Shown here: positions 11,612 through 61,920 of the stretch, piece after piece
Position numbering within the stretch: the stretch's first letter is position 1
Layout of the letters: every line of letters starts with the position of its first letter
Assembly: GCA_963662175.1 (NCBI GenBank)
Contig: OY759227.1
Location: 6,790,501-6,854,500 of the forward strand
Direction of reading: 5' to 3'
Source: Aradus depressus
Taxonomy: Eukaryota; Arthropoda; Insecta; Hemiptera; Aradidae
DNA length: 64,000 nucleotides
Notes under the pieces: generated by a model
What the model saw: the letters and a program-made list of their open reading frames with translations, nothing else
The model's database searches: none
Told to the model about the DNA's origin: nothing
Program-made: the position numbers and the translations under genes

Positions 11612-12011
11612 CAATAGGCAAATGATGGCTGACTCTTGCAGCTTTTATAAGTTTGCCAAATGATCCGCGGGATCCCGAGCCTATTTTGACTTTGGCTTTC
11701 ATTCCGGAAGTTACAACTAAAGCAGCCGCTTTCTCTCCCCACTTTGCGTCCTTAGATTGCACTCTTGTCCAAGCTTTATCTGCCCAAATTCTGTCGGCTA
11801 TATGCCGCTGAGATAAATCTTTAGTTTTTGAATAGGATATATCGTGTTCACGACAGGCTTCGTCTAGGGGATTAATTCCTCTAACGCCTCGGGCTAAGCG
11901 TTCTTGTGGATGGGTGCCAGGCCCGCAAAAATTATACCCGGGGATGTGAGCTTCAAATGGTAGCTTATTGATCAAAGTGTTTACTATGCCTTCTCCGATC
12001 TTTCGTTTCAT
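11583..12011 (-). CDS. Polinton B: phospholipase A2-like domain protein
   Basis: Starting at ATG 12011, the calcium-loop motif YNFCGPGTH (residues 26-34) is followed by the catalytic helix DEACREHDISY (residues 50-60, His56-Asp57). This is the arrangement of parvovirus VP1-type secreted phospholipase A2 domains, which in those virions open endosomal membranes. The last 30 residues (SFGKLIKAARVSHHLPI) match the first part of the Polinton A hydrophobic protein. It seems that the two ORFs were one protein, split here by a one-base shift near 11,611. The domain is absent from Polinton A. An alternative GTG start lies at 12026. Confidence 0.8.
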   Translation of the reverse strand: MKRKIGEGIVNTLINKLPFEAHIPGYNFCGPGTHPQERLARGVRGINPLDEACREHDISYSKTKDLSQRHIADRIWADKAWTRVQSKDAKWGEKAAALVVTSGMKAKVKIGSGSRGSFGKLIKAARVSHHLPIDEASVIEKG

Positions 12012-12082
12012 ACTGAATGCCGGCACTCATAATCATAAATTTATATATAGACGCTTCTACCCAAGAGATTCCATTTGCCGAG
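12012..12082. promoter_or_regulatory. Divergent promoter region, Polinton B
   Basis: The 71 bp between the phospholipase-like gene (minus) and the ATPase (plus) contain TATATATA at 12042-12049. The same gene pair is divergent in Polinton A, so a shared bidirectional promoter is plausible. No other element is recognised. Confidence 0.35.
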
Positions 12083-12253
12083 ATGCATTTGGAGTCTCAG
12101 CCTTTACAACTGAAAGTTGTTAATCTTCTCCCCCATGATGAAAATGCGGAATCCGCCAGTCTGTTACCAGCAAGACCTCTGATAATTGTTTGCGGCGCAA
12201 GCGGATCGGGTAAAACCAATTTGGTCATTAGTCTTCTCCTCGATGAAAATGGT
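12083..12253 (+). pseudogene. Polinton B: packaging ATPase, N-terminal part
   Basis: ATG 12083 starts a frame with QPLQLKVVNLLP and Walker A CGASGSGKTN, followed by SLLLDENG, then homology stops abruptly at 12,253. The next homologous codon is at 33,067. The family is the FtsK/HerA-type genome packaging ATPase. Confidence 0.9.
12243..12253. repeat. 11-bp flanking duplication (left) of the 20.8-kb block
   Basis: ATGAAAATGGT is repeated exactly at 33056-33066, in the same codon phase of the ATPase gene. It looks like the target site duplication of the I-like element that opened the block. Confidence 0.8.
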
Positions 12254-32736: not shown

Positions 32737-33055
32737 TGCCTCTCAGATTATGAGAGATGGTGAAACCTAGAAAAATAGTGAGAGAAAAAGAAAAGAATTG
32801 CCAGTGTGCAAGAAAAAATCAAAATTTCATCAAAAAAATCAAAAAACAAAAAAAAACAGATGGGTAGATGAACAAAAGTGAGAACAAGATAGTTCTAATA
32901 GAGGGAAAAATAGATAAATAAAATAAATAGGTAAAAAAATAATTAAAATAGATAGATAGGTGAAAAATAGCAGTATGTGAGATACGAGTGGCCTGTAAGC
33001 CGGGAGCTCCGTGCACTAGATCCTTCCTGCAGGACGGTCTGGACACAATCCCAAA
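32737..33055 (-). other. 5' UTR of the minus-strand I-like element
   Basis: Non-coding and AT-rich (32,800-32,970), with a more GC-rich start at 32,985-33,055 that could hold the internal promoter of a non-LTR element. No gene is seen. Confidence 0.45.
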
Positions 33056-33066
33056 ATGAAAATGGT
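33056..33066. repeat. 11-bp flanking duplication (right) of the 20.8-kb block
   Basis: Exact copy of 12243-12253, followed directly by the next codon of the ATPase. Confidence 0.8.
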
Positions 33067-33576
33067 CTTTGTTCTGAAACTATTTACGTTTACTCTCGAT
33101 CTTTAGCCCAAAGGAAATATACTTTTTTGAAAGATGGCATGGACACTGTTCCTGAAATTGGATATTACACAATCGATGACTCGGAAAATATGATACAACT
33201 TGAAGATGCAAAACATAAATAGATCGTTTTATTTGATGACGTCAGTCTTGATAACCACAATATAATAAGAAAATATTTTAGCATGGGACGACATGTCTAT
33301 ATATCCTATTTATATTGGACAAACTTATGCGCATATACCAAAATATTAATTAGAGACAATGCCATCTTTTTAATACTTTTTCGTCAAAATTTGCTAAATT
33401 TAAAACATATTTATCAAGATCACGTCAGCTCGGGTGATCTCACATTTGATTTGTTTGAAAACATGTGTGCTCTATGCTGAGACAATGATCCCTATGGGTT
33501 CTTTGTGCTCGATAAAACCCGAGAGACAAGCAAGGGGAGGTATCGAAAAGGGTTTGACACCTTTATATTGCTGTAA
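33067..33576 (+). pseudogene. Polinton B: packaging ATPase, C-terminal part
   Basis: Blocks match the intact protein at 40334-41038: ETIYVYSRSLAQRKYTFL, VPEIGYYTIDDSE, the Walker B region IVLFDDVSLDNHNIIRKYF and NLKHIYQDHVSS. The C-terminal FFVLDKTRETSKGRYRKGFD is also present. In-frame stops lie at 33,220-33,222 and 33,478-33,480, and a frame change occurs near 33,290. Confidence 0.85.
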
Positions 33577-33601
33577 ATAGATCTTTCCCCCTCAGTTTAA
33601 A

Positions 33602-34510
33602 ATGAATCGCTCAGTAGTACACGATATTATAGAGACCTCTAAAGGGTTGAAAAAAAAATCAAATCTCTTAAGAGCTTTAGAGAGCCATGAGTCATTGGAA
33701 AGGACATTCGAACCTGTTACAAAACCTCTTCATCAGCTAGCAGAGACTCTTAAAAAGAGGTCCCCACATGCAAAAATGGGAACTCATCCAGTCTTCCCGT
33801 CTGCTCCTATGAAATCTGAAATATACACGCAAACACTTGCCCCCTCCATCACTCCGATAAGTGGAACAATTGGGAGACGAAAGACTCAGATGTACACTCC
33901 GACTAGTCATGAAGAAAAAATTGCCCCACCATCCGTCACTCCGATAAGTGAAACAATTTGGAGAAGCTAGACTCAGCTGTACACCCCCACTACTTATGAA
34001 GAAGAAATTGTTCAAGGGCCAATTGAAGAAGTGTTTGAAAGCGCATCGCCACCCATTACTTCTGTGGAAGAGGCGCAGCGTTTTCCCAGACATCGATGGA
34101 TAAGGAAGAAGTTGAGCCTATGTTTGACACAACCAATATTGGCCCCTATTTGCGCCCATATATCAGAAAGTTTCTAAGCGGAGATACATAAGACTTGGAC
34201 AATCGCTATGGGCTTCGTTTTCTTCCCAGCGGCGGGCTGACATTAGGCGATACCGCAGTTCGAGTAGACCATAATGACCTGGACGTAAATGATAAATTTT
34301 ATCAAGGAACGCCGGGGCTTCACCAACTTTTGTTTTTAAAAGACCCCAAGACTTATACGAATGCCGTTTTAGGAGTATATAAAGAGCTGTTGATGGCTTC
34401 AAATGCCCACAGGAAACAGTATAGCGAAATAAATAAAGGGTTTGAGTGGCAATAAAAGTCTCAAGTATAAAAATATGTATCCCATATGGTGTCCAGCTCT
34501 AGTAGCGATA
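33602..34510 (+). pseudogene. Polinton B: homologue of the 361-residue protein next to the ATPase
   Basis: The N-terminal block IIETSKGLKKKSNLLRALES and FEPVTKPLHQLAE, and the C-terminal block YGLRFLPSGGLTLGDTAV ... KFYQGTPGLHQLLFLKDPK, match the intact gene at 39212-40297. A tandem of similar segments (TPTSHEE, ITPISGT/ITPISET) sits in the middle. Stops at 33,968 and 34,188, and decay after 34,455, disable it. Confidence 0.8.
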
Positions 34511-36665: not shown

Positions 36666-36944
36666 ATGATGTACAATATATTACAATGGAATGCAAGATC
36701 GGCTGTTGCGAATAAGGGAAGTTTAGAAATTTGTCTGGGAGGATCGAGCGTAGACATAGCTGTCTTGAGTGAGACATGGTTCCGTGAGGGCTTTTATGTG
36801 AATTTTAAGGGTTACAATAATATTAGAGAGGACAGGATGGGCGGAAAGGGTGGAGTCGCCATTCTGTTGCGGAACCACATTTTCTACCAGAGCATAGATT
36901 CTATTTGCAGGTTAGATAATGTCCAAGTGGTCGGAGTTAGAGTT
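36666..36944 (+). pseudogene. I-like retrotransposon 2 ORF2, endonuclease start (interrupted)
   Basis: ATG 36666 opens an endonuclease domain with ILQWNARSAVANKGS and VDIAVLSETWF, as in element 1. The frame runs into Polinton A at 36,945 and resumes after the target duplication at 61,921. Confidence 0.9.
36939..36944. repeat. 6-bp target site duplication of Polinton A (left)
   Basis: AGAGTT recurs at 61915-61920. Six base pairs is the Polinton standard. Confidence 0.95.
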
Positions 36945-37517
36945 AGTAGAGGAACATTGTGCGTTGAGGAATGAGGAGGTCTTTTTGTACCCCCCTCGCC
37001 TGTGTGAGATCGCAAAACGCCTCCCATTCTCCTCTTTGTCTATGGGTCTCTGTCTTTATCGTCATCTCTGTTCATGCACCTCCTTGTCTAGTTAATATAT
37101 GATAATTGCTCGTACTACAGAAACTAAACTTTTTTGGATTTGATCTGATTTTGATGAGTAGCATATCATTGGAAAGGTCTTTTTATGACGAGTTCAGGGA
37201 AGTTTGATTTGAATAAAAAAGATGAATTGGTGAGATGTAAATGAAGGATACAGATTTTCTTTCATTACTTGGTATGGAGGTAATAAAATTCATGATCCTC
37301 CGGGGAGAAATAGCAATGTGTTCCTCCTTGTCTTAATTGCTTACACTTCAAAAACGTAACTTTCATGGAACTGATCTGATTTTGGTAATTCACATATCAC
37401 TGGAAAGGTCTTTTCAAGACGAACACAGTGATATTAAATTTGAATTAAACAAATGAAGTCTATGGTTTTTCATAGATAGGACTGTGGACAAAATAATTTA
37501 CATATAAAAAAAATGTA
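36945..37517 (+). repeat. Left terminal inverted repeat of Polinton A
   Basis: It matches the reverse complement of 61336-61914 almost base for base. Inside, a segment beginning CCTCCTTGTCT occurs twice (about 37,079-37,232 and 37,323-37,457) with shared tggaaaggtcttttnnagacga. No gene. Confidence 0.95.
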
Positions 37518-37579: not shown

Positions 37580-38515
37580 TTAAACAACATCAGACGAATT
37601 TATCCAGCTTTTTACATGTGGTAATCCAAGCCATGAAACGTACATTCGCTTTCCTTTTCTTCTTATAATTCTTTCAATGAGGTAAACATCTGGGTATCGC
37701 ACTTTTTGAAGTTCTTCACTGTAGATACCACCTTGAATTATTTGTCCAGTATCATCTTGGATAATGTAGGTTGTAGGAATCGTATTTCGAACTTGAACAA
37801 CTTTGAAGATTTCAGCACTCCAATTTTTAGTGTAACCTTTAGAAAACATTGTCTTATTTTTCGAAAGTCTCACGTAATCCCCTTCTTTAAATTTTGGTAC
37901 TTTATTATAGTTTTGTTCTTTGAACAACTTAGTGTAGACTTGTTTTTCGGTAGAAGGTGTTATTTCAGACGGTTTAGCTCCGGTCATTCGATGAATGCTG
38001 TTATTATACTCGAAAAGGAGCTGAGGAAGAATATCGTAGAATTTGAAATTTCCACGAAGTGTAAACTGCTTCCACATCTTTGATTTTAATGTTCTATTAA
38101 AACGCTCCACGATTGAAGATTTTAAAGAACTGAACGTACTATAATGTTTTATACCATATGATGTCATTAATTTATCAAAAATTTTATTATAAAATTCTTT
38201 TCCATTGTCTGATTGTACATGTTTTGGGATTGGATCACTATCTTGAAAGACCTTCTCCAGAGCAGCCGATACATCAGCTGCTTTTTTAGATTTCAGTGGT
38301 TCAGCCCATGCAAATTTACTAAAAGTGTCAATAACTGTTAATAAATATCTATAACTCTTATTTACACGAGCATAAGGTTGCATTTCCACAAGGTCAATTT
38401 GCCAGAGATCGTCTATACTTTTAGTCAGTACTCTTCGCCGTTGATAATGTACCCGACTAGGTTTGTGAAGCTCATTTACCACCACTTCTTTTATAGAATT
38501 CTTGCTTGCTGACAT
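37580..38515 (-). CDS. Polinton A: retroviral-type integrase with chromodomain-like tail
   Basis: The 311-residue protein inserts element DNA into the genome. The acidic triad is D41 (DLWQIDLVEM), D103 (VQSDNGKEF) and E137 (SSIVERFNRTLKSKMW), with 33 residues between the last two, as in Polinton integrases. The N-terminus is short, with the family's LHKP...RRR segment and no HHCC zinc finger. The C-terminus IERIIRRKGKRMYVSWLGLP resembles a chromodomain. The frame is complete. The start codon lies inside the preceding gene (44-bp overlap). Confidence 0.95.
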   Translation of the reverse strand: MSASKNSIKEVVVNELHKPSRVHYQRRRVLTKSIDDLWQIDLVEMQPYARVNKSYRYLLTVIDTFSKFAWAEPLKSKKAADVSAALEKVFQDSDPIPKHVQSDNGKEFYNKIFDKLMTSYGIKHYSTFSSLKSSIVERFNRTLKSKMWKQFTLRGNFKFYDILPQLLFEYNNSIHRMTGAKPSEITPSTEKQVYTKLFKEQNYNKVPKFKEGDYVRLSKNKTMFSKGYTKNWSAEIFKVVQVRNTIPTTYIIQDDTGQIIQGGIYSEELQKVRYPDVYLIERIIRRKGKRMYVSWLGLPHVKSWINSSDVV

Positions 38516-38984
38516 ATTTTTCTTCCAGAAGTTTCAAGAGATAGTCGAGAGTAACAACATCCGTTGGTTCCGCAGGTTCTTGCACATGTGTAATTCTTCT
38601 CTGGTGTGCATCATATACATACTTTTTCGATAATTGAAGAGTGGTCGCTTCTAAGTAATTTCTGTTTACTACATCATTTTTGTCAATAGGATCACCAACA
38701 TTTACAAGTCTTTTTCCAGCAGTGTTTATATATTTACCAGGCCAATTTTGTAAATTTGTATAATATAAAGCTAACAAATCAACATATTGTTTTGTAACAG
38801 CATCATTTGAAGCAATTGGATACTCTAAATTTTGTATTCTCCTTCGTGCAATATCTATAGTTTTTCCATCGAGTAGATGTTTAAATCGCTCTTCCCCTTG
38901 TAGAGCTGATACTACTTTTTTTAATTTTCTCTGCTCTCGAAAATGTTTTTTTATCACATGAGAACCAAACTTATCAACAGTCAT
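38472..38984 (-). CDS. Polinton A: three-repeat protein resembling phage tail-fibre repeats
   Basis: The 170-residue protein starts basic (KKHFREQRKLKK) and carries three repeats of about 40 residues with the pattern R-I/L-x-x-V/L-x-x-P-x(4)-D-x-V-x(3)-Y-L/V: RRIQNLEYPIASNDAVTKQY at 48-67, KRLVNVGDPIDKNDVVNRNY at 91-110 and RRITHVQEPAEPTDVVTLDY at 129-148. The first is very close to the DAVTKxYVD repeats of phage tail fibres. I infer an elongated trimeric fibre or spike for the virion, but it sits next to integrase and ATPase genes, so other roles are possible. I know no name for it. Confidence 0.75.
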   Translation of the reverse strand: MTVDKFGSHVIKKHFREQRKLKKVVSALQGEERFKHLLDGKTIDIARRRIQNLEYPIASNDAVTKQYVDLLALYYTNLQNWPGKYINTAGKRLVNVGDPIDKNDVVNRNYLEATTLQLSKKYVYDAHQRRITHVQEPAEPTDVVTLDYLLKLLEEKYVSKQEFYKRSGGK

Positions 38985-39014: not shown

Positions 39015-39212
39015 TTATGAAAAATAAACTTTACGAACACTGAGATATCGAGTCCGACAAAGTGGACATAGAATGCAATAGACTGAGCAGTTTAGGCATG
39101 TTATCAAATGACCACATGGTAAAAACACACAATCAATATTTTCATCAAAGCATATTTTACATATAATATTTTGTCGTGATTCATTATCGAATATTTGTTT
39201 AGATTCTTCCAT
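39015..39212 (-). CDS. Polinton A: RING-finger protein
   Basis: The 65-residue protein is almost only a RING-HC finger: C18, C21, C33, H35, C39, C42, C49 and C52 (CKICF ... LPCGHLITCLNC ... CPLC). The type is that of IAP and related E3 ubiquitin ligases, with a short hydrophobic-aromatic tail. No BIR domain is present. The start codon overlaps the stop of the upstream gene (TGATG). An E3 ligase acting on a host protein is the natural inference; the substrate is unknown. Confidence 0.85.
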   Translation of the reverse strand: MEESKQIFDNESRQNIICKICFDENIDCVFLPCGHLITCLNCSVYCILCPLCRTRYLSVRKVYFS

Positions 39213-40297
39213 CAGTGTATAATATTTGCCTCTCTAAGTTCTTCAATTATAGACCCTATTTCATTCGTATGAGCTGAATTACCAGCTGCAGAGGATGCGA
39301 TTAAAATTCTCAACCTTGAAACTATTTCATTTGGGTCATCCCAAAATTCATGCAATCTTTCACTTTCTTTTACCCATCCAAAACCTTTACCAACAATTTT
39401 TTTGGGTCTCAGTCTTATATTATATTTGGTCCCAGGAGGGAAGAGCTTTGATATAATTTTTGTGTACTTCGATCCACTGTTGAAATTAATCCCTTTTGAC
39501 GCACTATAACTCCGTCTATGAGCATTTGTAGCGAATAAAATATCTTTATATTTGTTCAAATCTTCTGATGAATACTGTTTAGGATCTTTCAAAAATAACA
39601 ATTCATATAGACCAGGGGTACCTTCATACCATTTATCATGAATATTAAGATCATCATTATTTACTGTAACGACACTATCACCGATAAACATACCACCAGT
39701 TGCACCAAACCGAATACCATAGCGAGTGTCGAATTCTTCAGTTTCTCCTTTGATAATTTTATCTAAATACTTTTGAAACCTTTCACCGAAATAGAAATTT
39801 TGAAAACGTTGATCCAACTCTTTTTGTCCTTCAGGTGTTTGAACGTAAGTTTGAAGCTCATCAAGTGGAGTCTTCGATGGCTCACTTGTATAAATCAATT
39901 CTTCTTTTTCCTCTTTCGGATCCTGCACTTCTTCTTCTTCTTCTTCCTGTGAAAAGCCTGATGCATCCCTGGAGATGGAAGACTGTTTTGGGGTTGAAGT
40001 TGATGGAATCAATGTTTTTCTACTATAAATAGATGGTGCTCCGGCAAAAGACGGAGTATAAGATTGAGGGATCCTTACGGTAGATGGTTTAAATAGTTTT
40101 TCTTCAACAGTAACAGGTGGTATATCCCTTTTCCTTTTCCGTATGTGTTCGGTGAAATCTTTGAGAGGTTTTGTGATCGGTTCAAAAGTTTTTTCTAACT
40201 GCTCCCTAGTTTCTAACACATTTTGTTTTAAAGCTTTAAATTTTTTTCTTAACCCTTTACTCGTCTCAATTATACTGTTTATCACAGTAGGGTCCAT
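39212..40297 (-). CDS. Polinton A: conserved 361-residue protein of unknown function
   Basis: The N-terminal helix-rich block (IIETSKGLRKKFKALKQ, FEPITKPLKDF) is followed by a disordered, acidic middle with a run of E (about residues 115-130). The conserved C-terminal domain comprises TRYGIRFGATGGMFIGDSV, WYEGTPGLYELLFLKDPKQY, FATNAHRRSYS and KPKKIVGKGFGW-like elements. A broken homologue sits at 33,602 next to the Polinton B ATPase, so the pairing is conserved. I recall similar proteins as uncharacterised families in arthropod genomes. A virion or packaging role is inference. Confidence 0.8.
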   Translation of the reverse strand: MDPTVINSIIETSKGLRKKFKALKQNVLETREQLEKTFEPITKPLKDFTEHIRKRKRDIPPVTVEEKLFKPSTVRIPQSYTPSFAGAPSIYSRKTLIPSTSTPKQSSISRDASGFSQEEEEEEVQDPKEEKEELIYTSEPSKTPLDELQTYVQTPEGQKELDQRFQNFYFGERFQKYLDKIIKGETEEFDTRYGIRFGATGGMFIGDSVVTVNNDDLNIHDKWYEGTPGLYELLFLKDPKQYSSEDLNKYKDILFATNAHRRSYSASKGINFNSGSKYTKIISKLFPPGTKYNIRLRPKKIVGKGFGWVKESERLHEFWDDPNEIVSRLRILIASSAAGNSAHTNEIGSIIEELREANIIH

Positions 40298-40333: not shown

Positions 40334-41038
40334 TTATAGCTGAATAAACACATCAAAACCCTTACGATATCGGCCATTGTTCTTCTCACGTGTTTTATCT
40401 AAGACGAAAAACCCAAAAGGATGTAACCAACAAAGTGAACACATTTCCTTGAATTTATAAAAAGTTAAATCAAGGGATCCTACATGGTCTTCATAAATAT
40501 GTTTCAAGTTCAAGTCATCTTGTTGAAAAACAATAATAAAATTTTTATTATCTCGAATCAAATGTTTTGGGACCCTCGCATAGGTTTGAATCACATTAAT
40601 ACAATCTTGATTTCGGTGTCTCCCCATGCTAAAGTATTCTCTAATAATGTTTTGACTTTCATTAGAAATATCATCGAATAGAACAATGGATTTTGTGTTG
40701 GCGTCTTGAGGTGAAACTACATGATATGTTTCATTAAAAGTGAAATAACCAATCTCTGGTACATTCTTCATTACTTTTTCTAAAAAAACGTATTTACTTT
40801 GTACCAATGATTTACTGTAAATGTAAATGTTTTCAAAATAAAGTCCATTTGAGTCGAGTAGCAGGGAAAGAACTACGTTTGTTTTACCAGACCCTGATGG
40901 CCCACATATGATAGCTCGTAAGCTCTCTGGTAGTAAAGAACCGTGACGACGACGACGATGATTCTCCCCACTGATATTTTCAATTTTATGAAGGAAATTA
41001 GAGACCTCGAGTTTAATAGGCTGTTGTTCAAGTAGCAT
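40334..41038 (-). CDS. Polinton A: genome packaging ATPase (FtsK/HerA type)
   Basis: The 234-residue protein has Walker A GPSGSGKT at residues 46-53 and Walker B IVLFDD at 118-123, followed by YFSMGRHRNQDCINVIQTYA with a sensor-like region. This type pumps DNA into preformed capsids in adenovirus-like and PRD1-like viruses. The frame is complete. The gene is divergent from the hydrophobic virion protein, with 173 bp between. Confidence 0.95.
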   Translation of the reverse strand: MLLEQQPIKLEVSNFLHKIENISGENHRRRRHGSLLPESLRAIICGPSGSGKTNVVLSLLLDSNGLYFENIYIYSKSLVQSKYVFLEKVMKNVPEIGYFTFNETYHVVSPQDANTKSIVLFDDISNESQNIIREYFSMGRHRNQDCINVIQTYARVPKHLIRDNKNFIIVFQQDDLNLKHIYEDHVGSLDLTFYKFKEMCSLCWLHPFGFFVLDKTREKNNGRYRKGFDVFIQL

Positions 41039-41211: not shown

Positions 41212-41658
41212 ATGATGATGAATACTAAGCTTGGAGGAAACAGTAGGAGAAGAAAAATAAGAAGAAGAGGGAAAGTATATTCATTTCACGATGTAGTAAT
41301 GGCAGCAAAGATGAACCCATCCTTACCAATAATGAAAGCGTCTAAACAAGCACTCGCAAAAGCAAAACATTTTATCAAGAAAAGAGGCACACCACCCTCA
41401 TTGCCAAGAGTGCTTCCACTCCCCAAGACTGGTGGTATATTACCATTTTTAGTTCCTCTATTTGCTGGATTGTCAGCACTTGGTAGCTTAGCTGGAGGAG
41501 CTTCGAGTATAGCAAAAGCTGTGAACGAAGCTAAAAAAGCTCGTGAACAACTCGAGGAAATGAAGCGACATAACTTAGCCATTGAGGCTCAAAAAATAGG
41601 TACAGGCCTATATTTAAAACCATACAAAAGAGGTTATGGCCTCTACACATACAAGTGA
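41212..41658 (+). CDS. Polinton A: glycine-rich hydrophobic virion protein (PX-like)
   Basis: The 148-residue protein has a very basic N-terminus (RRRKIRRRGK), a hydrophobic segment FLVPLFAGLSALGSLAGGAS at about residues 80-99, a helix KAREQLEEMKRHNLAIEAQK and a tail rich in Gly, Tyr and Lys. The homologue in Polinton B has an extra phospholipase A2-like domain in front. A DNA-binding or membrane-active virion protein is inferred. The stop TGA-C is followed in the same frame by the protease. Confidence 0.75.
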   Translation: MMMNTKLGGNSRRRKIRRRGKVYSFHDVVMAAKMNPSLPIMKASKQALAKAKHFIKKRGTPPSLPRVLPLPKTGGILPFLVPLFAGLSALGSLAGGASSIAKAVNEAKKAREQLEEMKRHNLAIEAQKIGTGLYLKPYKRGYGLYTYK

Positions 41659-41784: not shown

Positions 41785-41907
41785 TGTAGCAACCAGCTAT
41801 GCTAGATGTTTTATATTGTTAACCAGTTGAGTTGAGAAATATATATTGAGAAGTTCGTGTTGAGAATTGGATTTTTAATTACTCATACTATTAAGTGCTA
41901 CGCTACA
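41785..41907 (+). repeat. 5' LTR of gypsy element 2
   Basis: Starts TGTAGC, ends CTACA. It lacks 9 bp present in the 3' LTR. Confidence 0.95.
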
Positions 41908-41925
41908 TTTGGTGGCAGCGGTGGG

Positions 41926-42768
41926 ATGCCGAAAAAAAAAGAGGGACAACACGCTCTGGGGAAAAGGATCGGCGCCGATGAGTCAGTCGACGGGAGACCC
42001 CTCATTTTCCCGAAAGAGTTCACTTTGGGGTCATGGAATGACTACATTGAGTATTTCAACAAGGTAAGTCAAGTTAATAAGTGGACTGACGATGTAAAAG
42101 GTCTATTTTTATCTTTGTGTCTGACAGGGGAAAGCCTAAGCATATACAGGAACATGTCTGTGGAAGACCAAGGTAATTTCGCCCTCGTTTGTAGAACCAT
42201 AGAGGTTAAATTAGACCCTCCTGAGCGGCGGGAGCTCAAGAAAGATGAGTTCAAAGGGCGGCGGCAAGCGAGGAGCGAGTCTTTGACACAGTTCGCCACC
42301 GCCCTGGAGACTCTCTACAACGAGGCCTACCCGGAGAGAGTTGGGGAGGCGGTGCGACAGGAAACCTTAAAGGACCACTTCCTGGAGGGTCTCCGGGACA
42401 AAAACGTTCGATTTCAAACTGCGTTAACGTCCCCCGACACTCTAGAGTCAGCACTAAGCAGAGCATCGAAAATGGAAATTATAGCTCTACGTCATGGCTC
42501 ATTGACGTATGCCGCCGAGGTTCAGGATATGGGGGATAGCCCGGTTGTAGCGGCTACTGACCCTATCCCAGGAGCCTCAGTGTTACACATGATGCTGCGA
42601 GAGCAAAATGAAAAAATAACGGCACTTACGAGGGCAGTGGCGGAGCTGGTGGTTCAAAAGGAGACGAAGCGTGCGGATACAGGCCGAAGGGGTCCGGTCT
42701 GCTGGACCTGCGGCAGGTCGGGGCATATCCAAGCCCACTGTTCGGTGAAGCCACCAAAGGGAAACTGA
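41926..42768 (+). CDS. Gypsy 2 gag
   Basis: ATG 41926 gives a 280-residue protein with a capsid-type domain (FPKEFTLGSWNDYIEYFNKV ... KGLFLSLCLTGESLSIY ... LKDHFLEGL) and one CCHC zinc knuckle CWTCGRSGHIQAHC near the C-terminus. The frame is complete. It forms the particle in which the element is reverse transcribed. Confidence 0.9.
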   Translation: MPKKKEGQHALGKRIGADESVDGRPLIFPKEFTLGSWNDYIEYFNKVSQVNKWTDDVKGLFLSLCLTGESLSIYRNMSVEDQGNFALVCRTIEVKLDPPERRELKKDEFKGRRQARSESLTQFATALETLYNEAYPERVGEAVRQETLKDHFLEGLRDKNVRFQTALTSPDTLESALSRASKMEIIALRHGSLTYAAEVQDMGDSPVVAATDPIPGASVLHMMLREQNEKITALTRAVAELVVQKETKRADTGRRGPVCWTCGRSGHIQAHCSVKPPKGN

Positions 42769-42842
42769 AGCCGGCCGGCGACAGGGACCAGTCGTCGGCC
42801 GGGCTACAGGAGGTCCTCACTATCCGAACTGGGGCTTGCAAC

Positions 42843-45800
42843 GTGAGGAACGAGGTGGCGGTGAACATCAATGGGGTTCCTACTCATGCTCTTGTTGATT
42901 CGGGAGCCAGTGTGACGTTAATTAGCAGTGATTTTGCTGGGAAGATGGGCTTGCAACCAGATACACCCTATAAGCAAAATCTGAAGAACGCCAACGGGGG
43001 CAGTATCAGTGTTCAGGGGTCTGCCTGGGCCACTATAACTATCGGATCGCATCAAGGCGAGCACAAATGTGTCATCGGGGACATATGGCGCGACGTCATC
43101 TTAGGTTACGACTTCCTGGAGGCGGTGTCAGCGTGTCTGATATTAGGCAGGGGCACGCTGCAGATCGGGGGAGTGAAAGTACCGCTAAGCGCAAGCATAC
43201 CAGTCGCCAATGAAATTCACGCATTCGTTCCGGAAACTATAGTTATACCAGGAAGGCATGAGGTTGCTGTCAGTGCGAGGGTGGAGGCTGAGGATGGAGT
43301 TGAAGTAATTTTCGAGCCTAGGGATGATATCATGGAGAAGTATGGCCTATGTCTAGCCAGGGTAGCTGCTATAGTTCACCATGGGATGATCCCCGTCCGG
43401 ATGATGAATCCGGATCTTGACCCGAAGACACTTTTTGCTCGGACCAGTATAGGAAAGGTAGAGAAACCAACAGCGGCATCTAACACCTTCGTAGAATCGA
43501 TGGAAACCGAAGCAGGACTCAATTGTAGGGCGGACGAGTTGTTTGACCTGGATAATGTGGCACTAAACCCGACTCAGAGGGAGAACCTCGTGAGACTGCT
43601 AGAGGATTTCCGAGACATTTTCTCAACAGGTCCCACAGATCTTGGGCGCACTGGCCTTATGAAGCACCGAATTGGCACCGCTGACGCTATGCCAATACGC
43701 CAGCCACCTCGTCGTATTCCTTTACAACGCCGACAGGAGGTTGCGAGAATGGTTAGGGAGATGAGAGAGCAAAACGTCATCGAACCATCGGCGTCACCTT
43801 GGGCTAGCCCGATCGTTTTGGTTCAGAAGAAGGACGGGTCAGTACGATTCTGCGTGGATTACCGGCGGCTGAATGGGGTCACAAAAAAGGATGCTTATCC
43901 GTTGCCGAGAGTGGATGACATCTTAGACAATCTGGGGAATGCGAAGTGCTTTTCGTCGTTGGACCTCGCCTCTGGGTACTGGCAGGTTGAAGTGGATCCA
44001 CAGGATCGGGAGAAGACGGCGTTCATAACATCTGAGGGGCTCTTCCAATTTAAAGTATTACCGTTTGGGTTGTGCAATGCCCCTAGCACGTTCCAACGGT
44101 TGATGGACCTGGTCTTAGGAGGGTTAAAGTGGAAGACTGCGATGGTCTATCTGGACGATATTGTTATATGGAGTCCGACAGTAGATGGGCATTTGGAACA
44201 TCTAAGGGAGGTCTTCACAAGAATTCGAAATGCCCATCTCAAACTGAAACCTAGAAAATGTCCTGCTCCGGGAGCAGATAAGTTACTTAGGTCACGTAGT
44301 ATCGAGCGAGGGTGTAGCTACCGATCCTGAAAAAATTAGAGCGGTAAGGGACTGGCCAGAGCCGGCTGACGCTCGGACGTTAAGGGCATTTTTAGGTTTC
44401 GCAGCATACTATCGAAGATTTATTAGAAATTTCGCTGAAATTGCCGCTCCTCTATACAAAGCGGCCGACAAAAAGGAGAAGTTCTCTTTTGGGCCGGAGT
44501 TGTGGAAGAGCTTTAGCCATTTAAAAACGGCCCTAGTGGAAGCCCCGGTACTTGTCTTACCCAAAGGTCCGGGAGACTTCATTGTGGACTGCGATGCTAG
44601 TGACCTGGGGCTAGGGGCCGTGTTGAGCCAAATGCAATACGGCCAGGAAAGGGTCATAGCATATGCGAGCCGATCACTGTCAAAGACGGAAAGGCGATAT
44701 TGTACGACACGGAAGGAAATGTTGTCCCTGGTCTATGGCATTCGGCAATTTCGGTATTACGTTTACGGGAGGAGATTTACTGTCCGCACTGACCATAATT
44801 CACTAAAATGGCTCCAGTCGTTTAAGGAACCAGAGGGCCAGGTAGCGAGATGGCTCGAGCTGTTGTCCCCATACGACTTCGAAGTGATACACCGACCAGG
44901 AAAAAAACATTCGAATGCCGACGGACTTTCCCGATCCTGTCGTCAGTGTGGTGTTGAACAAAATGTTCGGGAGGCCGTGGAGCGAGATCGTCGCAGTGAG
45001 GTGAGCGAAGAGAGAGATGAAGGGTCGAGCTGCGTCGCAGCCATACTCCCTGATGACGAGCTCAGAGTTGCTCAGCAAGAAGACCCCATTCTTTCTGTTG
45101 TCTTCAAGTGGCTAGAGGAGGGAACTCGGCCAAAATTCGAAGATGTCAGAGGAAGTGATCCAAAACTTCTAAGCCTGTGGACTCAAGCGAATCGACTGGA
45201 ACTGCTCAATGGGCTGATTCATCGGCGGTGGGAGGAGGATGGAAAGCCTACCAGGCATCAGCTATTGTTGCCTCGAACCCTTGTTGAGGAAGTGCTTAGG
45301 AGCTTGCATGACAGTTCAGCGGGAGGTGGGCACCAGGGAATCACAAGAACCCTTCGGAAGGTGAGCGACAGGTTCTATTGGCCTGGTCACAGACGGGACA
45401 TTGAAAACTGGATCAACGCCTGTCCTGATTGTGCGGCGAGGAAAGGAACGAAAACACGAGCCCCAATGCAGAGAGTGACCGCGGGATTTCCATTCCAGAG
45501 AATTGCTATGGACATACTTGGACCGCTCCCAACTACTGATCGCGGGAATAAATACATTGTTGTCGTTGCGGATTATTTTACCAAATGGGTTGAGGCATAT
45601 CCTCTGAGGAACATTGAGGCAGCAACGGTCGATGAGGTATTTGTCCTGGAGTTTGTTAGTCGATACGGAGTACCGTACGAGCTGCACACCGATCAGGGTA
45701 GACAGTTTGAGGCGCAGCTGTTTGTGGATCTGTGTAGCCGTCTGGGCATAAAGAAGACGAGGACTAGCCCCTACCACCCAGCATCTGATGGTATGGTTGA

Positions 45801-46368
45801 ACGGTTTAACAGGACTTTGTGCGGTATGTTGTGTCATTTTGTAGTGGGACGGGAAACTTCGTAGGACCAGCAGTTACCTTTAGTGATGATGGCGTACAGG
45901 GCCAGCCAGCATGACTCTACACATATCACCCCGTACTATGCCCTGTTTGGGCGTGAGATGAGTCTCCCGCTCGATGTTATGTATGGGCTAGCGGAAGAAA
46001 GGGAAGATATGAATCTCCACGAGTACGTCCGCAAGCGAGGGGCCCAGCTGGAGGCCGCTTTCGCATCAGTGCGCAAGGAGTTGGGTAAGAGCCAGATACG
46101 TCAGAAAGACTACTATGACAAGAAGAGCCAGGAACTCAAATTTCAGGAAAGTGACATTGTGTGGGTCTGGTACCCGGTGACCAGAAGAGGCCGGAGTTCC
46201 AAGTTCCACCGGCCATGGCAGGGTCCCTACACGGTGGTGAGGCGACTCTCAGACGTGACCTATAGGGTGCAGGATGGCAGGAACCGGAGGCGGCGGCTAG
46301 TGGTGCATGTCAACCGGCTGAAAGGCTACACCGGGACGGCGGCTGCTATTGGGAGGGGGAAAGTGTAG
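42843..46368 (+). pseudogene. Gypsy 2 pol (protease, RT, RNase H, integrase), broken
   Basis: The protease site is ALVDSGASVTLIS. The RT has VRFCVDYRRLNGVTKKD, FSSLDLASGYWQVEV and catalytic YLDDIVIW; RNase H has IVDCDASDLGLGAVLSQ. The integrase zinc site is HQGITRTLRKVSDRFYWPGH...CPDCAARKG, and its triad is AMDILGPLP, LHTDQGRQF and HPASDGMVERFN. A C-terminal GPY-like module (WQGPYTVVRRLSDVTYRV) follows. A one-base shift lies near 44,263 and a TAG stop at 45,862-45,864 sits where relatives have Trp, so the element is dead. Confidence 0.9.
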
Positions 46369-46495
46369 CAACCAGCTGTTGTTGCTATGCTAGATGTTTT
46401 ATATTGTTAACCAGTTGAGTTGAGAAATATATATTGAGAAGTTCGTGTTGAGAATTGGATTTTTAATTACTCATACTATTAAGTGCTACGCTACA
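46364..46495 (+). repeat. 3' LTR of gypsy element 2
   Basis: Same as 41785-41907 apart from the 9-bp insert. Confidence 0.95.
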
Positions 46496-46756: not shown

Positions 46757-47459
46757 ATGAGTTTAACTTTTACTCTAACGGGGGAGACAAATGTTCTCTC
46801 ATCAGATTTTTTCCCTCCTATCCATCTAGATGGGGATTTTACTCTTGGGCTATTAAGTTTTGATACTTTTAATGCTATACCTAATATAGTAGAAGGTGAA
46901 AATAATATATTTTACTATGGTAGTAAGCAAGTTGAGCTACCCACAGGAGCATATGAACTAGATGCAATAGCCAATTATTTAGAAGAACGTATAAAACACC
47001 CTGATGCAATTGTTCTCAGAGCAAATTATAACACTCTAAAAACTGAAATAAGATGCACTCAACCTGTCTTTTTTAACGATAACAAAAAGCCAAACTCGAT
47101 TGGACCATTATTAGGATTTTAAAAAAAAAATACAATGCTACTACCACAAGAAGGTTACCATACGTCAGATAGTGTAGTCATAAAATAATAAAATTAATTC
47201 TATTTCTATAGTTTGTAATCTGATCACACATTCTTATACCAACGGGAAATCTGAACATGTAATCTATAGTTCTTTCCCTTCAGTTGAACCAGGTTATAAA
47301 ATCGTAGAAACACCTTCTCCAATCATTTATTTACCAGTCAACGTTCAAACAGTTGACAACATCACCATACGTATAGTGGATCAAAACGGCGATCTTGTTA
47401 ATTTCAGAGGTGAAACAATTACAATACGACTTCATTTGAAGAAAAATAATGGGGATTGA
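46757..47459 (+). pseudogene. Polinton A: minor capsid (penton-like) protein, frameshifted
   Basis: The frame from ATG 46757 (LTFTLTGETNVLSSDFFPPI, LRANYNTLKTEIRCTQPVFF, NSIGPLLGF) stops at 47,122. The C-terminal half continues in other frames (FPSVEPGYKIVETPSPIIYL, ETITIRLHLKKNNGD) to 47,459. The break is at 47,120-47,210, around an A9 tract. The homologue in Polinton B has its own, different frameshift. Confidence 0.85.
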
Positions 47460-47595
47460 CTTTAAAAGTATTTATAATGCATCTCGGAGAGCGGGTTCTA
47501 TCAGTAGAAGAAGAGATCTAAAGCGATTGACACCAGGAAACGCTCGATTTTTAAAAGAGTTGGGACTTAAATTGAAAAAATGGACAATATCTTAA
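47449..47595 (+). CDS. Polinton A: 48-residue basic micro-gene between capsid genes
   Basis: It starts at 47449, overlapping the end of the minor capsid gene, and ends 16 bases inside the major capsid gene. The sequence is Arg/Lys-rich with SRRRDLKRLTPGNARFLKEL. Polinton B has a 45-residue counterpart in the same place (10063-10200). Conservation despite many mutations around it argues that it is a real gene. The function is unknown. Confidence 0.75.
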   Translation: MGIDFKSIYNASRRAGSISRRRDLKRLTPGNARFLKELGLKLKKWTIS

Positions 47596-48855
47596 ATGTT
47601 ACAGAAGAGGTGCTCTTTGATGAATCCGTCATTGATTTTGAATACCATTCATATCAACCGTATAAGTCAATTGATACTATCACCTATTCAGATGAAATAG
47701 GAATCAGAATTCACCAACAAGATGTGTACACAGCACCAGGCCTTAGCTACCTCTATATAGAGGGGAGACTAACCAAAGAGGACGGGACATCACCTACATC
47801 ATCCGAATTTGTCAACAATGGACCTTCATTCATCTTTGAAGAAATCAGATTATTACTAAACGGAACCAAAATTGATAGCGTGCGAAATGTTGGAATATCG
47901 TCTAGTATGAAAGGATATATTTCTTTTAGTCCAAATACAGTTAAAGGGATGGAAAACGCTGGATGGTTTTCACCGAGTATCACCACAAATATTAATAAAG
48001 ATGCGAGTGGGAAGGATGTTGAGGTAACCAACATTTCAACAAATAATCAAATAACTAAAAACGGTTACTTTAATGTCAGCATTCCATTGAGCAGTTTGCT
48101 GGGCATTGGAGAAGATTTTAAGAAAATATTAATCAGTGCTGTTTTGGAAATAGTACTTATTCGTTCACGTACAGATATTAATTGTGTAAAAGGAAATGAG
48201 AACGTTACTATAAACTTGTCAAAGTTATATTGGAGAGTACCGCATGTGAAAGTATCGGATGAATATAAACTAAGATTACTTAAAATTGTTAATAGTGGTA
48301 AATCACTATTTATTCCTTTCAGATCATGGGACCTTCTAGAATACCCCAGCCTTCCTTCAAACACCAATAAACATTCATGGGTTGTGAAAACAACAACCCA
48401 GTTAGAAAAACCCCGCTTCATCATTTTAGGATTTCAAATAGATGCAAAAAATAAGCTAAATTCTTATGCTAGTCAATTTAATCATTGTGAGTTAAACAAT
48501 GTAAAATTATCCTTACGAAGATTTGCGAATAGATTTCAAGAAAAACATATATGCTGTATAATAACATATGAAATGTATATAAACATATGAAATGTATGTT
48601 AGATTCCAATCAAGTTATTATGGTAAACGAATAAATGAACCCCTTTTATCGAAAAAAGACTATGAAAAACTCGCACCATTGGTAGTCATTGATTGTAGCC
48701 GGCAAATTGAAGCAATCAACTCGTCTACAGTGGACATCCGCTTGGATTTCGAGACAAATGATAATTTTCCTCCCAACACCTCTGCTTATTGTCTTATTTT
48801 GCATGATAAGATTGTGGAATATTCACCATTGAGTGGGTTGGTTCGAACATTGTAA
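47580..48855 (+). pseudogene. Polinton A: major capsid protein, frameshifted near the C-terminus
   Basis: ATG 47580 starts a frame with ILNVTEEVLFDESVIDFEY, IRIHQQDVYTAPGLSYLYI and LYWRVPHVKVSDEYKLRLL, ending at 48,590. The C-terminal part (VVIDCSRQIEAINSSTVDIR, SAYCLILHDKIVEYSPLSGL) is in the frame 48,598-48,855. The break involves lost bases near 48,500 and a tandem duplication of about 18-19 bp at 48,561-48,597. The family is the Polinton double jelly-roll capsid protein. Confidence 0.9.
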
Positions 48856-48894: not shown

Positions 48895-49563
48895 ATGTAT
48901 ACTGCAGCAGTAGTTGATTTCCAAGGGTTTCAAGGGGAACTGGGTTTCATCGTAAAGGAGCTTAGTGTTTTCGATCTTAATCATCCGACAATCTTTCATT
49001 TTTTCTTCAAACCTCCTCCAGAGAGACCTAACCGACAGAGTGAGATGCTATGGGTGAAAAAAAATCTCCATGGGATCGACTGGAATTTTGGTGAAATTGA
49101 CTACTCATATTTAAACAATGTTTTACAATCAACTACTTCACGATACGATCTAATATGGGTGAAAGGATTAGAAAAATGCAAATTTTTGGAAAGTATCATC
49201 GAGAAACCTGTGTTTGATTTGGATAAGTTTAACTGTCCATCTTTAAAAAATCTAACAGACCAAACCAAATGTGAATATCACAAAGGTACTAACTATGTTT
49301 GTTCCTATGATCAAGTTCATAAACTGGCCAACTGGATAAAATTGAATCCATCTAAAGTGGATTTCAACTGTAACAATATAAGACTTCTCACTTACGATAC
49401 AGCAAGCCCTTACCATTGTTTAGCTTATAATGGATTCATAAGAGGAGGAGGACAGAACTGGATACAATGTGTTCACTGTCATCTAAAGGTTGCAATACCA
49501 CTAACATCATGTCCCTATCTTCAACATAAATTGGAGAGTCGTCAGTGTATATTTACCATTTAA
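48895..49563 (+). CDS. Polinton A: DFQGF-family protein, exonuclease-like
   Basis: The 222-residue protein begins with AAVVDFQGFQGELGFIVKEL, a beta strand carrying Asp as in RNase-H-fold nucleases. It continues with FFKPPPERPNRQ, HGIDWNFGEIDY, IWVKGLEKCKFLESI and CPSLKNL, with a Cys/His pair at CEYHKG. A homologue in Polinton B is broken. The similarity to a DEDD-type exonuclease is my inference from the strand order; the usual D-x-E is D-x-Q here, so activity is doubtful. Confidence 0.65.
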   Translation: MYTAAVVDFQGFQGELGFIVKELSVFDLNHPTIFHFFFKPPPERPNRQSEMLWVKKNLHGIDWNFGEIDYSYLNNVLQSTTSRYDLIWVKGLEKCKFLESIIEKPVFDLDKFNCPSLKNLTDQTKCEYHKGTNYVCSYDQVHKLANWIKLNPSKVDFNCNNIRLLTYDTASPYHCLAYNGFIRGGGQNWIQCVHCHLKVAIPLTSCPYLQHKLESRQCIFTI

Positions 49564-51799: not shown

Positions 51800-51955
51800 T
51801 ATTAAATTTATTACATGAAAATAGGATAAGAAAATACTAGGACAAACTATTGGGAACTATGTTTCATTTTTATTAACTGTAATATTGAACTGAACATTTT
51901 ATACTTTTTATAAACATGTGACTTTTATATTAACAGTGATATTGCCATCTCAACA
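51800..51955 (-). repeat. 3' LTR of copia
   Basis: Read on the minus strand it starts TGTTGAGATGGC and ends TTTAATA. The gag-pol stop codon lies in its first bases. Confidence 0.95.
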
Positions 51956-55951: not shown

Positions 55952-56008
55952 TTATATTTTTACTTTTACTCTTACCTATTTTTTAATCTTCAATGATCTT
56001 GACGAACT

Positions 56009-56020
56009 GGGCCCATAACC
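56009..56020 (-). promoter_or_regulatory. Copia primer-binding site (initiator tRNA-Met half)
   Basis: Minus strand GGTTATGGGCCC begins one base after the 5' LTR. It is complementary to the anticodon arm of initiator tRNA-Met, the half-tRNA primer used by Drosophila copia. Confidence 0.8.
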
Positions 56021-56021
56021 C

Positions 56022-56177
56022 TATTAAATTTATTACATGAAAATAGGATAAGAAAATACTAGGACAAACTATTGGGAACTATGTTTCATTTTTATTAACT
56101 GTAATATTGAACTGAACATTTTATACTTTTTATAAACATGTGACTTTTATATTAACAGTGATATTGCCATCTCAACA
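56022..56177 (-). repeat. 5' LTR of copia
   Basis: Identical to 51800-51955 as far as I can read. Confidence 0.95.
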
Positions 56178-56182: not shown

Positions 56183-59100
56183 TTTCTAAAACTAGTATAT
56201 TTACATTCAAATTCTATTAAGGTTTTGTAAAAATCATCAAAAGTTATGTGATTTTTAATTGAACTCTATTTTATACCTTTTATAACTTTTTTTACAAGCT
56301 GTTGTGCTTTAAAAGAATAAACTTTAGATTTTAAACCAACATATTCCAACAGTATGTCACCCATTAACTCATCTTTCCATTTACCTAAACTTCGTTTATT
56401 CTCATTAGAGTGTAAGAAATGAGACAAATTATAATCTGAAGTGTTCAACTCATTAAGAAGTCCAACCATGTCTTGATAAACATCATTTGTCTTGATTGAA
56501 TAAAACAAGCTGTCCGTGTCTGTATAAAGTAGTTTCACTCTGTCGAGCCCGTATTTATTTAACATTATATCGTAATGAAATCGATAAAGCACTGTTTTTG
56601 AAATCTCCAATATAGAAAAACCTATGTAAATTGGTTTATTGAATAGTATATTTTCCTGTCTCAAATGAACTATCCCGAAGTTATCATTAAATACATTACA
56701 CTCCTCAAAATTTGTTTTACTGATATATTTTAATAGCTGTTTTTCAGTAGTTACTATTCTACGTTTTTTTCTTTTCCGAATGTTTTCTATACTTTTTCCA
56801 AAAATAGCATTATTCAAGAGTTTAAATTGAACTTTTTCGAATTCATTTTTCGCATTTTTCCGCTTTTCTGTATTAAATACTATATAAGGTGCTAACCATT
56901 TAGATTGTGTGAATTTTAATATTCTATGAATTTTTATAATTTCTAATCCATGGTTTAACGCTTGTCTTAATACTGTATAATGAACAATGTACCTAATTTT
57001 ATCAGATAGAGTATTCATAAGTTTAGGAAATTTGGATCCGTCTGGTGGGTTTTTCTTTTCGCATAAGAAGGGTAATGAGTTGTGTAAGTCATGAAGGGTG
57101 GGCGAATATCGAATATCAGCTTCCAATATGTACCCGATTTCGGAATCCGTATTCAAATTTTCTATATTGAATGTTTGTGGATTAACCCACTCGAAATTTT
57201 TATAAGGAAGCATTTCACACATGGCAAAACCATACAGATTATTTGCGTCTAGGTAAAGCAAATAATTGTCTGATAAGTTTGGATTATAATCACTCATGTA
57301 TTTATTATTAGCTTTTGAATATCTTGTTATACATTGCGTGATCCCTCCACGGATACCTGCTTCAATTAACAAAAGTTTCTCGTAATCTGATATCAACTCA
57401 AGCTCTACTTTCGTGAAAATAAGCATAGCATCCCAACTGTAACCAGGTATTGAGTAGTACCAGACAGGATCAAGCCTATAATATTCTAGACAAACATTTC
57501 TAAAATTCTCGAATACCTCGCAAAGTAAGATAATGTCGACTTTCAAATATAATTCCAAATATGTTTGTAAATTAACAATTTTAAATTTCCCCCAAATATT
57601 AAGAGCGTGTTGATAGTCTTCCTGACTAATAGAGTTTTCATTTAAGCTGTCATAGAATTTCTCTTTTGGTGGGAGACTTGTTTCATTTAGAACTTCAATA
57701 TTTTTTAAATAGTCATATGGGAAAACGCCTTTTCTTTTAACTAATGCATTCTCATCAGGTTCAGGGAAAAATGTATCTATTTCAGGTGTCGTATTAAGAA
57801 ATGAAGCTAATTTTCCTAAACTGTAAGACATAAATCTATAACTATCCAAAAAACGTAATTCTAACCCATTAATTGTTTTTGAAAATGATATATAAACTTC
57901 ATCCGATGAGGGTATCACATCAATTTTACCTCCATCACTCGATAAAGCCTTCAAAAGTAAATGAAAATCATATTTAGAACCACTATGTAGCAGAATCGGT
58001 ATGAACTTTGGTTTTCTTAATAACAAATTACAGTTTGAATGACAAATAAATCGCATTTTGCCTGTAAAATGACAGTGATCTAAAACTCTTTCTTCCGCCT
58101 CCATTGGTTTCCCACAGACTTCGCAAATATTAACTTTTTCAATTTTATCTAAATCAGAGTCATTTAACGGTTCCATGGCTACATTTTTATCATAAAACGT
58201 TTTGATGATTTTAACTAAATTAGTAAGGTATTCAATAAATCTACTCATTACATCTGGCCCAGTATAAATAAATGGTTCACTTGATAGTAAGGGACTACTC
58301 ACAATAGATTTTAAATATAATCCACAACTTATGACAGAATGTTTTTGGACAGGTTTACTTTGAATTTCGGTTTTGATTTTTTTACTTAGAGGTTCAGTTT
58401 CAATCGGCTCAAGTATACATTCAAAATCAGCGTAAATAACAAATGGAACTTTCTGAAGATGCCTGTAATTTTTGAATTTTAATGTTTCACCGTCATTAGG
58501 TAAATCTATTCTTGTTTCTGTGTGCTTATAACATAAAAGTTTATGTTCAGCATATAGCATTTCTGCTGACTTCCTAGATGTTGCGTAAAAATAGGAAAAG
58601 CAACGTTTACATATTAAAAAAGGGCTTCCATTATGGTTTTTCGTCAGTTGGGATCTAACCAATCTCTTGAAATTTTTAATCCAGCAATAATGAGAAGTTT
58701 CTTCTGTTTTTAAATAAAGTAAATCGAAATGACATAATTCCTCTTTTTGACTAATTTTTAATGGGTAGACTTTATTAGTTCTGTCTAGGCCGTAGACGTT
58801 ACAACTAACTTTATTAATTTTTTCAAAAGTTTTTATATCTTTTAACTGTGTTGGAAATGATATACAATCGAAATTTAAGGGGGAAGTAACTTTTTTATAC
58901 ATTTCTATATTGTAAAGAGCATTTTTTGTTTTCATTAGATAACCTAAAATAGCATATTTAAAACAGTAATTATCGTTATTATGAATGTTAATTACAGCTT
59001 TTCGATTTTCTATTACTTTAGGCAAAGGAATAAAGCTATTTCCCTTTAATGGAATGTATCTATAGATTTTTAATAAAAGAAAGTTGATTTTATTTAAACT

Positions 59101-59802
59101 CCAACCGCTGCCTCCTTTTATTTCCATTGTTTCATGCTCATTTAATAGCTGAGAAAATGATTTGGTTATAAGCTTGTGCAAATTGGATGAAGAATCCAAG
59201 TCTTTTAATCGGGTTTTAAATTGTGTTTTCTTTACAATTTCGTCACCTTCAGAAAGTTTTACGTGCTCACATTCGAGTATAAACTGAACTTTTATAGTAA
59301 ACCATTCTTGAATTTTTTTTTGAAGTTTTTCGTAGACATTGTTTTCCAAACTATTTAAAAAAGTTGTAATATTCTTTATACATTTAATATTTTCATATGT
59401 TTGAAAGTCTAGAACATTATTTAAGTTGTTTCTTAATAATTGAATACTTTCTGATTTTTGCTGTGCAATAGAATAATTTGATGTATTCGTTATCTTGTTA
59501 TGTTGTGTTTTTATATGCCTGTTCAGATTATAAAGATTTTTGAATAATTTTCCACAAATGTGACATAATTTTGAATCCATCTTCCCCTCCCTCTACCTTA
59601 ACCGTCTATAAACTATTAATCACCTTTCAATGTTATGCTGCGCTGACTGGAAGGGATGGATGGAAACGTATTACCCTGGGGGAGTCCAATTATAAAAATT
59701 CAAGGATGAATGCGTTTCCCACCGTTCCTTTGTATTTGAGTTTTAACCCACCTGTGAAATAAAAAAAAAAATAATAAAATACATTTAAAAACAAATAGGT
59801 AC

Positions 59803-61335: not shown

Positions 61336-61914
61336 TACATTTTTTTTCAATGTAAATTATTTTGTCCACAGTCCTATCTATGAAAAACCATAGACTTCAT
61401 TTGTTTAATTCAAATTTCATATCACTGTGTTCGTCTTGAAAAGACCTTTCCAGTGATATGTGAATTACCAAAATCAGATCAGTTCCATGAAAGTTACGTT
61501 TTTGAAGTGTAAGCAATTAAGACAAGGAGGAACACATTGCTATTTCTCCCCGGAGGATCATGAATTTTATTACCTCCATACCAAGTAATGAAAGAAAATC
61601 TTTATCCTTCATTTACATCTCACCAATTCATCTTTTTTATTCAAATCAAACTTCCCTGAACTCGTCATAAAAAGACCTTTCCAATGATATGCTACTCATC
61701 AAAATCAGATCAAATCCAAAAAAGTTTAGTTTCTGTAGTACGAGCAATTATCATATATTAACTAGACAAGGAGGTGCATGAACAGAGATAACGATAAAGA
61801 CAGAGACCCATAGACAAAGAGGAGAATAGGAGTGGGAGGCGTTTTGCGATCTCACACAGGCGAGGGGGGTACAAAAAGACCTCCTCATTCCTCAACGCAC
61901 AATGTTCCTCTACT
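61336..61914 (-). repeat. Right terminal inverted repeat of Polinton A
   Basis: Reverse complement of 36945-37517, ending CTACT at 61914. Confidence 0.95.
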
Positions 61915-61920
61915 AGAGTT
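61915..61920. repeat. 6-bp target site duplication of Polinton A (right)
   Basis: AGAGTT, matching 36939-36944. Confidence 0.95.

Follow-up and report, generated by a model that had tools for sequence, protein, structure and literature searches.

The window (the whole 64,000-nt stretch of Aradus depressus DNA analysed here) contains a Polinton at positions 36945–61914, which is bounded by terminal inverted repeats (TIRs) and a 6-bp target duplication and carries an integrase, an ATPase, and a double-jelly-roll capsid protein. A gene for a short fibre-like protein sits within this element. The features are given below; the labels PX, PY, penton, and PolB are those that we assume for the respective ORFs.

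36939..36944, unstranded, left target-site duplication AGAGTT
36945..37517, unstranded, left TIR, 573 nt (aligned with the right TIR over 579 columns, 568 of them identical and 6 with gaps)
37580..38515, minus strand, rve integrase (PF00665, E=3e-17)
38472..38984, minus strand, fibre-like gene, 170 aa, three repeats (PF03906, E=1.2e-8; repeat test; orthologues)
38949..38984, minus strand, N-terminal peptide MTVDKFGSHVIK, candidate capsid-docking peptide (conserved in relatives)
38745..38861, minus strand, repeat 1, residues 42–80 (internal alignment)
38628..38741, minus strand, repeat 2, residues 82–119, with NWPG (residues 80–83) at its start
38511..38624, minus strand, repeat 3, residues 121–158 (best Pfam stretch 114–150)
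39015..39212, minus strand, RING-finger protein, 65 aa (PF13920, E=2.8e-11)
39212..40297, minus strand, PY-type Polinton protein (matched beside the fibre gene in 37 of 40 loci, including that of the window; no Pfam family above the cut-off)
40334..41038, minus strand, packaging ATPase (PF04665, Pox_A32, E=2.5e-9)
41212..41658, plus strand, PX-type protein (65% identity over 101 aa to a decayed copy in the window)
46757..47122, plus strand, penton-like ORF (no family match)
47580..48590, plus strand, double-jelly-roll major capsid protein (PF21738, E=1.6e-62)
56266..59580, minus strand, PolB-like ORF, 1104 aa (YTDTDSLFY visible; no PolB Pfam match)
61336..61914, unstranded, right TIR, 579 nt (aligned with the left repeat)
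61915..61920, unstranded, right target-site duplication AGAGTT

The first-pass annotation had described a Polinton gene adjoining the integrase, and the TIRs, the AGAGTT duplication, the rve integrase, the packaging ATPase, and the capsid protein confirmed this. Two further elements are nested in the Polinton, one at 41796–46495 with 112-nt identical ends, presumably an LTR retrotransposon, and one at 51800–56177 with 156-nt identical ends, which we take to be a copia-like element; the 100% identity of the repeat ends suggests that both insertions are young. The PolB-like ORF stops 89 nt before the copia-like insertion, and this Polinton copy is therefore probably non-autonomous. The element is flanked by one ORF on each side (36666–36974 and 62025–63509), presumably LINE-type reading frames. 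A second, decayed Polinton was observed in fragments at 5730–12253 and 32959–34488, where capsid, penton-like, PX, ATPase, and PY sequences are split by other elements; these fragments gave no fibre match at E<=0.01. In addition, positions 48895–49563 gave a weak match to the BIR (inhibitor-of-apoptosis) family (E=0.0012, below the cut-off). The same Polinton encodes the separate RING protein at 39015–39212, and it is possible that the two are split IAP-like genes.

The fibre-like ORF starts with an ATG at 38984, ends with a TGA stop at 38472–38474 on the minus strand, and shares 44 nt with the integrase ORF. In the encoded protein, a linker of about 27 residues connects the N-terminal peptide (MTVDKFGSHVIKKH) to the three repeats, each 38–39 residues long, and the chain ends in a short charged tail. 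The summed pairwise score of the repeats was 146, compared with a mean of 52.9 (SD 6.6, maximum 93) in 5000 shuffles (z=14). The motif [ILV]x[NH][ILV]xx[PG]x4D[AV][VA], which was composed after the repeats had been inspected, occurs three times in the ORF, and even one occurrence was found in just 2 of 20000 shuffles. Three repeats of a P-x4-DAVTKxYVD pattern had been proposed earlier; the three repeats are real, but the literal pattern is present in repeat 1 only, the corresponding stretches being P-x4-DVVNRNYLE in repeat 2 and P-x4-DVVTLDYLL in repeat 3.

The likeness of these repeats to those of phage fibres, also claimed in the earlier annotation, was supported by Pfam, PHROGs, and PDB profile matches. 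The best Pfam family was Phage_T7_tail (PF03906; E=1.2e-8; 35.3 bits, cut-off 25.2), aligned at profile positions 113–149 of 157 only, so the match is to the motif and not to the T7 domain; the whole N-terminal tail-attachment domain of T7 gp17 is not present according to Pfam. In PHROGs, 14 families matched at E<=1 (best 7.4e-10), of which eight were tail, one head decoration, and five of function listed as unknown. All 11 members of the family alignment A2 contained PF03906 at E<=0.1, and seven of them also contained YadA_stalk (PF05662), a family that Pfam did not list for the window protein at E<=1. At the same threshold, the window protein matched neither the adenovirus fibre shaft or knob nor the C-terminal YadA membrane anchor.

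A PDB search with the family profile A3 (E<=1, best 0.0013) gave 16 sequences, 15 of which were phage fibres or spikes or trimeric adhesins, the sixteenth carrying only the name "orf22". With the profile A2 (E<=0.1, best 0.0011), all 16 sequences belonged to these two kinds, and the individual PDB matches were weak (E 0.001–0.9). We take the entries 2yo0, 2yo3, 4lgo, 3d9x, and 1p9h to be trimeric adhesins and 9m4c to be a tail-spike depolymerase. The long relative P0008 matched seven PDB sequences at E 0.06–0.9, with names of phage or hyaluronidase proteins. Since trimeric autotransporter adhesins are matched as well, the repeats are not specific to phage tails. None of 50,697 phage records covered 80% of the window protein, nine of them matching at E<=1; likewise, none covered 80% of P0008, and one matched at E<=0.01.

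The first-pass annotation had proposed testing whether orthologues with the repeats occur in other Polintons, and within the same genome they do. In the 698-Mb assembly, the fibre search yielded 238 matches at E<=1e-3, with 150 of 256 candidates scored; the 150 matches listed fall on 15 contigs. A set of 40 loci, among them the one in the window, was inspected, comprising the best 20 and a further 20 selected for their divergence. In 39 of them (the exception being L042), an integrase match lay beside the fibre gene on the same strand, and PY was found on the other side in all but L030, L038, and L049. In 20 of the 40 loci, namely the window's subfamily and L036, the fibre and integrase matches share 41 nt; in 19 they are spaced by 3–190 nt, and the remaining locus has no integrase beside the fibre gene. 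A fusion or frameshift product with the integrase was thus ruled out. The long form P0008 gave 116 matches in this genome, none of which spanned more than 134 of its 288 residues.

A reciprocal picture was obtained from the integrases, for which 127 matches were listed (127 of 2130 candidates scored). Among integrases with at least 50% identity, a listed fibre match lay directly upstream in at least 84 of 94 cases, at a gap of −40 to 347 nt (at least 19 of 22, at least 5 of 5, and at least 60 of 67 by identity band). Two more distant integrase lineages had none directly upstream among the matches listed (0 of 33; 0 of 11 and 0 of 22). Both values are lower bounds, because only 150 of the 238 fibre matches were listed, and at least one of the ten integrases without a listed fibre has one, as a fibre match from the P0008 search precedes the integrase at C7:47203963. 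Pieces of the fibre gene are present at L059, whose integrase is 52% identical. At L058, a single copy of the lineage with 45–46% identity, PY and the integrase are 40 nt apart with no gene in between, and at L057 and L060, of the lineage with 47–48% identity, unrelated ORFs of 147, 109, and 243–249 aa lie beside the integrase. Thus, the existence of two lineages without a listed fibre beside the integrase indicates that the fibre gene is probably not universal in Polintons.

Many of the fibre copies in this genome are broken. Among the open ones, three subfamilies share an MT[VIL]DKFG start and three repeats, small differences at the start being seen in L035 and L041. Divergent subfamilies, at 36–57% identity, still have this N-terminal peptide (MTxDKFG) and all three repeats. 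The peptide MTVDKFGSHVIK is conserved in most open copies and in the relatives P0001–P0006. A conserved NWPG precedes the second repeat in subfamilies A and B and the third repeat in subfamily C; this shift indicates that repeat units were gained or lost. The dN/dS ratio (NG86) was 0.11–0.39 in 9 of 14 pairs, two of which have saturated dS, and 0.20–0.21 in four between-group pairs with dS of 0.87–1.10, so that the groups diverged under purifying selection. Of the other five pairs, three gave no ratio, and two recent ones, with few changes, gave 1.1 and 3.8. The overall pattern fits such selection acting while the elements spread, with drift after insertion.

Beyond this genome, three protein-collection searches gave 82 proteins in total. 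A KFG-type start was found in 35 of the 82 by a strict pattern and in 38 by a looser one, a share that is biased upward because the queries contained that peptide; some of the members without it may be phage or bacterial. Longer relatives have a similar start; one of them, P0032, comes from another insect, Apolygus lucorum, where it lies on a 34.5-Mb contig. Of the 72 wider members, scanned at E<=1e-3, 43 contained PF03906, four YadA_stalk, and two F5/8 type C; the latter two, P0058 and P0062, both lack the KFG start, and the match in P0062, at 27.5 bits, falls just short of the Pfam cut-off of 28.2. A comparison of the profiles of the short and the long form gave a match at 99% (E=7.4e-18), with columns 11–151 of 169 aligned to 1–175 of 293, the N-terminus included. 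Scans of viral contigs with the fibre, the ATPase, or an integrase alignment revealed no relatives, and none of 79 candidate stretches obtained with profile A3 from genome contigs was a relative. A DNA pattern for the KFG peptide gave seven loci with ORFs of 9–42 aa, which were judged to be chance. Alignment A7 gave four loci; judged by their ORFs, two (L008 and L011) are stretches of tailed phages, the other two (L009 and L010) contain long fibre-like ORFs, and none is Polinton-like.

On the basis of sequence comparison, it is likely that the Polinton virion carries the gene product as a short homotrimeric fibre or spike. In phage fibres and adhesins, the neck unit is the point where three chains pass from beta structure to a coiled coil, and from this role in the matched PDB structures we infer a homotrimeric stalk for the window protein. 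Each repeat would be a neck-type unit with a short beta part (xxRRIxNxxxP) followed by an Asp-capped turn into a helix (DAVTKxYV); the three chains would associate through these units, and three units would form the stalk. The conserved N-terminal MTxDKFGxH peptide would most likely dock the trimer on a capsid vertex, as the N-terminal peptide of the adenovirus fibre docks on the penton. Contact with the host cell would be made by the free C-terminal end or, in longer relatives, by a head. Trimer formation, vertex docking, location in the virion, and cell contact or receptor binding are thus predicted features; cell binding is plausible from the relatives and is the least secure of them, since 170 aa leave little space for a head domain. 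The first-pass annotation had also offered a tail-like part of the virion. This is unlikely, because the capsid protein of the element is of the double-jelly-roll type, whose capsids are not known to bear tails.

The most durable of the other explanations, which we nevertheless regard as unlikely, is that the same repeats trimerize in a short vertex plug, a cement, or a capsid assembly protein that makes no contact with the host cell. Repeat numbers of 1 to 7 in relatives (loose pattern), as in shafts where length matters, argue against such a role, as do the F5/8-type domains in 2 of the 72 wider homologues, though neither of these has the KFG start. The protein is, on the other hand, just 170 aa long, and the longer relatives P0017, P0031, and P0032, scanned singly against Pfam, gave PF03906 and no binding domain. 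Helical capsid-surface proteins of the Cah class, which have been proposed in adintoviruses and related viruses (PMC11071296, in the part available), would also be compatible with it.

Considerably less probable is a protein outside the virion, such as an integrase partner or an intracellular trimer, whose adjacency to the integrase would be explained by a shared function. The linkage in at least 84 of 94 cases and the 41-nt overlap in 20 of 40 loci would be expected from such a partner; however, the overlap is not kept in the 19 loci with 3–190 nt of spacing, one locus has no integrase beside the fibre gene, and none of the 33 integrases of the two other Polinton lineages has a listed fibre adjoining. 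In addition, most of the named proteins to which the repeats are related are phage tail proteins or adhesins. That the pattern arose by chance, that it stems from contaminating phage DNA, or that the ORF is unselected is of negligible probability, the literal earlier pattern in repeat 1 only being the one point in favour: the shuffle test (z=14) ruled out a chance repeat, the 238 own-genome matches and the lack of any phage record at 80% coverage among 50,697 ruled out contamination, the own-genome matches and the 40 examined loci ruled out a single-copy accident, and there is purifying selection between groups.

The proposed virion fibre can be compared with several known systems. The D-A-V-T-type repeat unit is shared with the T7 gp17 N-terminal domain (PF03906) and similar tail fibres, from which the window protein differs in matching profile positions 113–149 only and in having no whole-length phage homologue in the 50,697 records. 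The stalks and necks of trimeric autotransporter adhesins (PF05662, YadA-type) align in the R-I-x-N-V ... D-A-V-N unit, and PF05662 occurs in 7 of 11 family members; unlike them, the window protein has no PF05662 match and no autotransporter anchor and is encoded by a eukaryotic virus-like element. The adenovirus fibre, with its N-terminal docking peptide and repeated shaft, is alike in the proposed layout only, as the window protein has no Pfam match to the adenovirus models and no room for a knob.

The earlier statement that no fibre is described for Polintons has to be narrowed. According to the available part of PMC12220804, phage-like fibre proteins occur in protist Polinton-like viruses, where they are modular, combined with Peptidase_S74, laminin-G, or collagen (PMC12220804). 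These are alike in having phage-type fibre modules in a Polinton-related element and a proposed role in cell binding (PMC12220804). The protein described here differs as a 170-aa three-repeat protein of a TIR-bounded integrase Polinton, whose family has an insect member. For animal Polintons, our literature searches, which covered chiefly titles and the starts of abstracts and are thus weak evidence of absence, found no report of a fibre, and the words fiber, fibre, and spike are absent from the main texts of PMC4028283, PMC4642659, and PMC8097293 by text search. Tail-fibre-like proteins have likewise been proposed for another small eukaryotic-virus relative, the virophage DSLV2, with a claimed structural homology to T4 gp37; the comparison with the window protein is by description only (PMC12724248, in the part available). 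The Cah proteins of adintoviruses and related viruses are a proposed class of predicted helical or coiled-coil capsid-surface proteins with reovirus sigma-1 as the typical HHpred hit and adenovirus protein IX as the canonical example, and the window gene could be counted within this class, known to us by description only; in the accessible part of the source, "fiber genes" are mentioned once, in a remark on a fish adomavirus vaccine (PMC11071296).

A broader proposal, which we put forward tentatively, is that animal Polintons may own a modular fibre system in which a KFG-type docking peptide is combined with a variable number of phage- or adhesin-type trimer joints and with different tips. If this is true, the multi-copy lineages of this genome would be equipped as cell-entering viruses, and those lineages in which the gene is missing beside the integrase would provide a natural comparison. 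Whether animal Polintons form infectious particles is a long-standing question, for which a conserved, selected fibre-like gene offers a concrete protein to seek. The MTxDKFG peptide together with the repeats provides a sequence handle for fibres in other Polintons, and a single genome allows lineages with and without the fibre gene to be compared.

The distribution of copies within the genome gave some additional observations. Contig C14, which holds the window and comprises 16.36 Mb of 697.7 Mb (2.3% of the assembly), contains 88 of the 150 listed fibre matches and 54 of the 127 listed integrase matches. This is a strong concentration of Polintons, and C14 is perhaps non-recombining or a B or sex chromosome. 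At C1:80745275, C1:80752119, C9:31836700, C14:5875174, and C15:78675, an open frame of 121 aa gave a fibre-like match of equal score. Another type with a 199-aa open frame (e.g., L046 and L047) was present with equal score (E=3.8e-19) at no fewer than 22 places on many contigs, which suggests a recent amplification of that Polinton.
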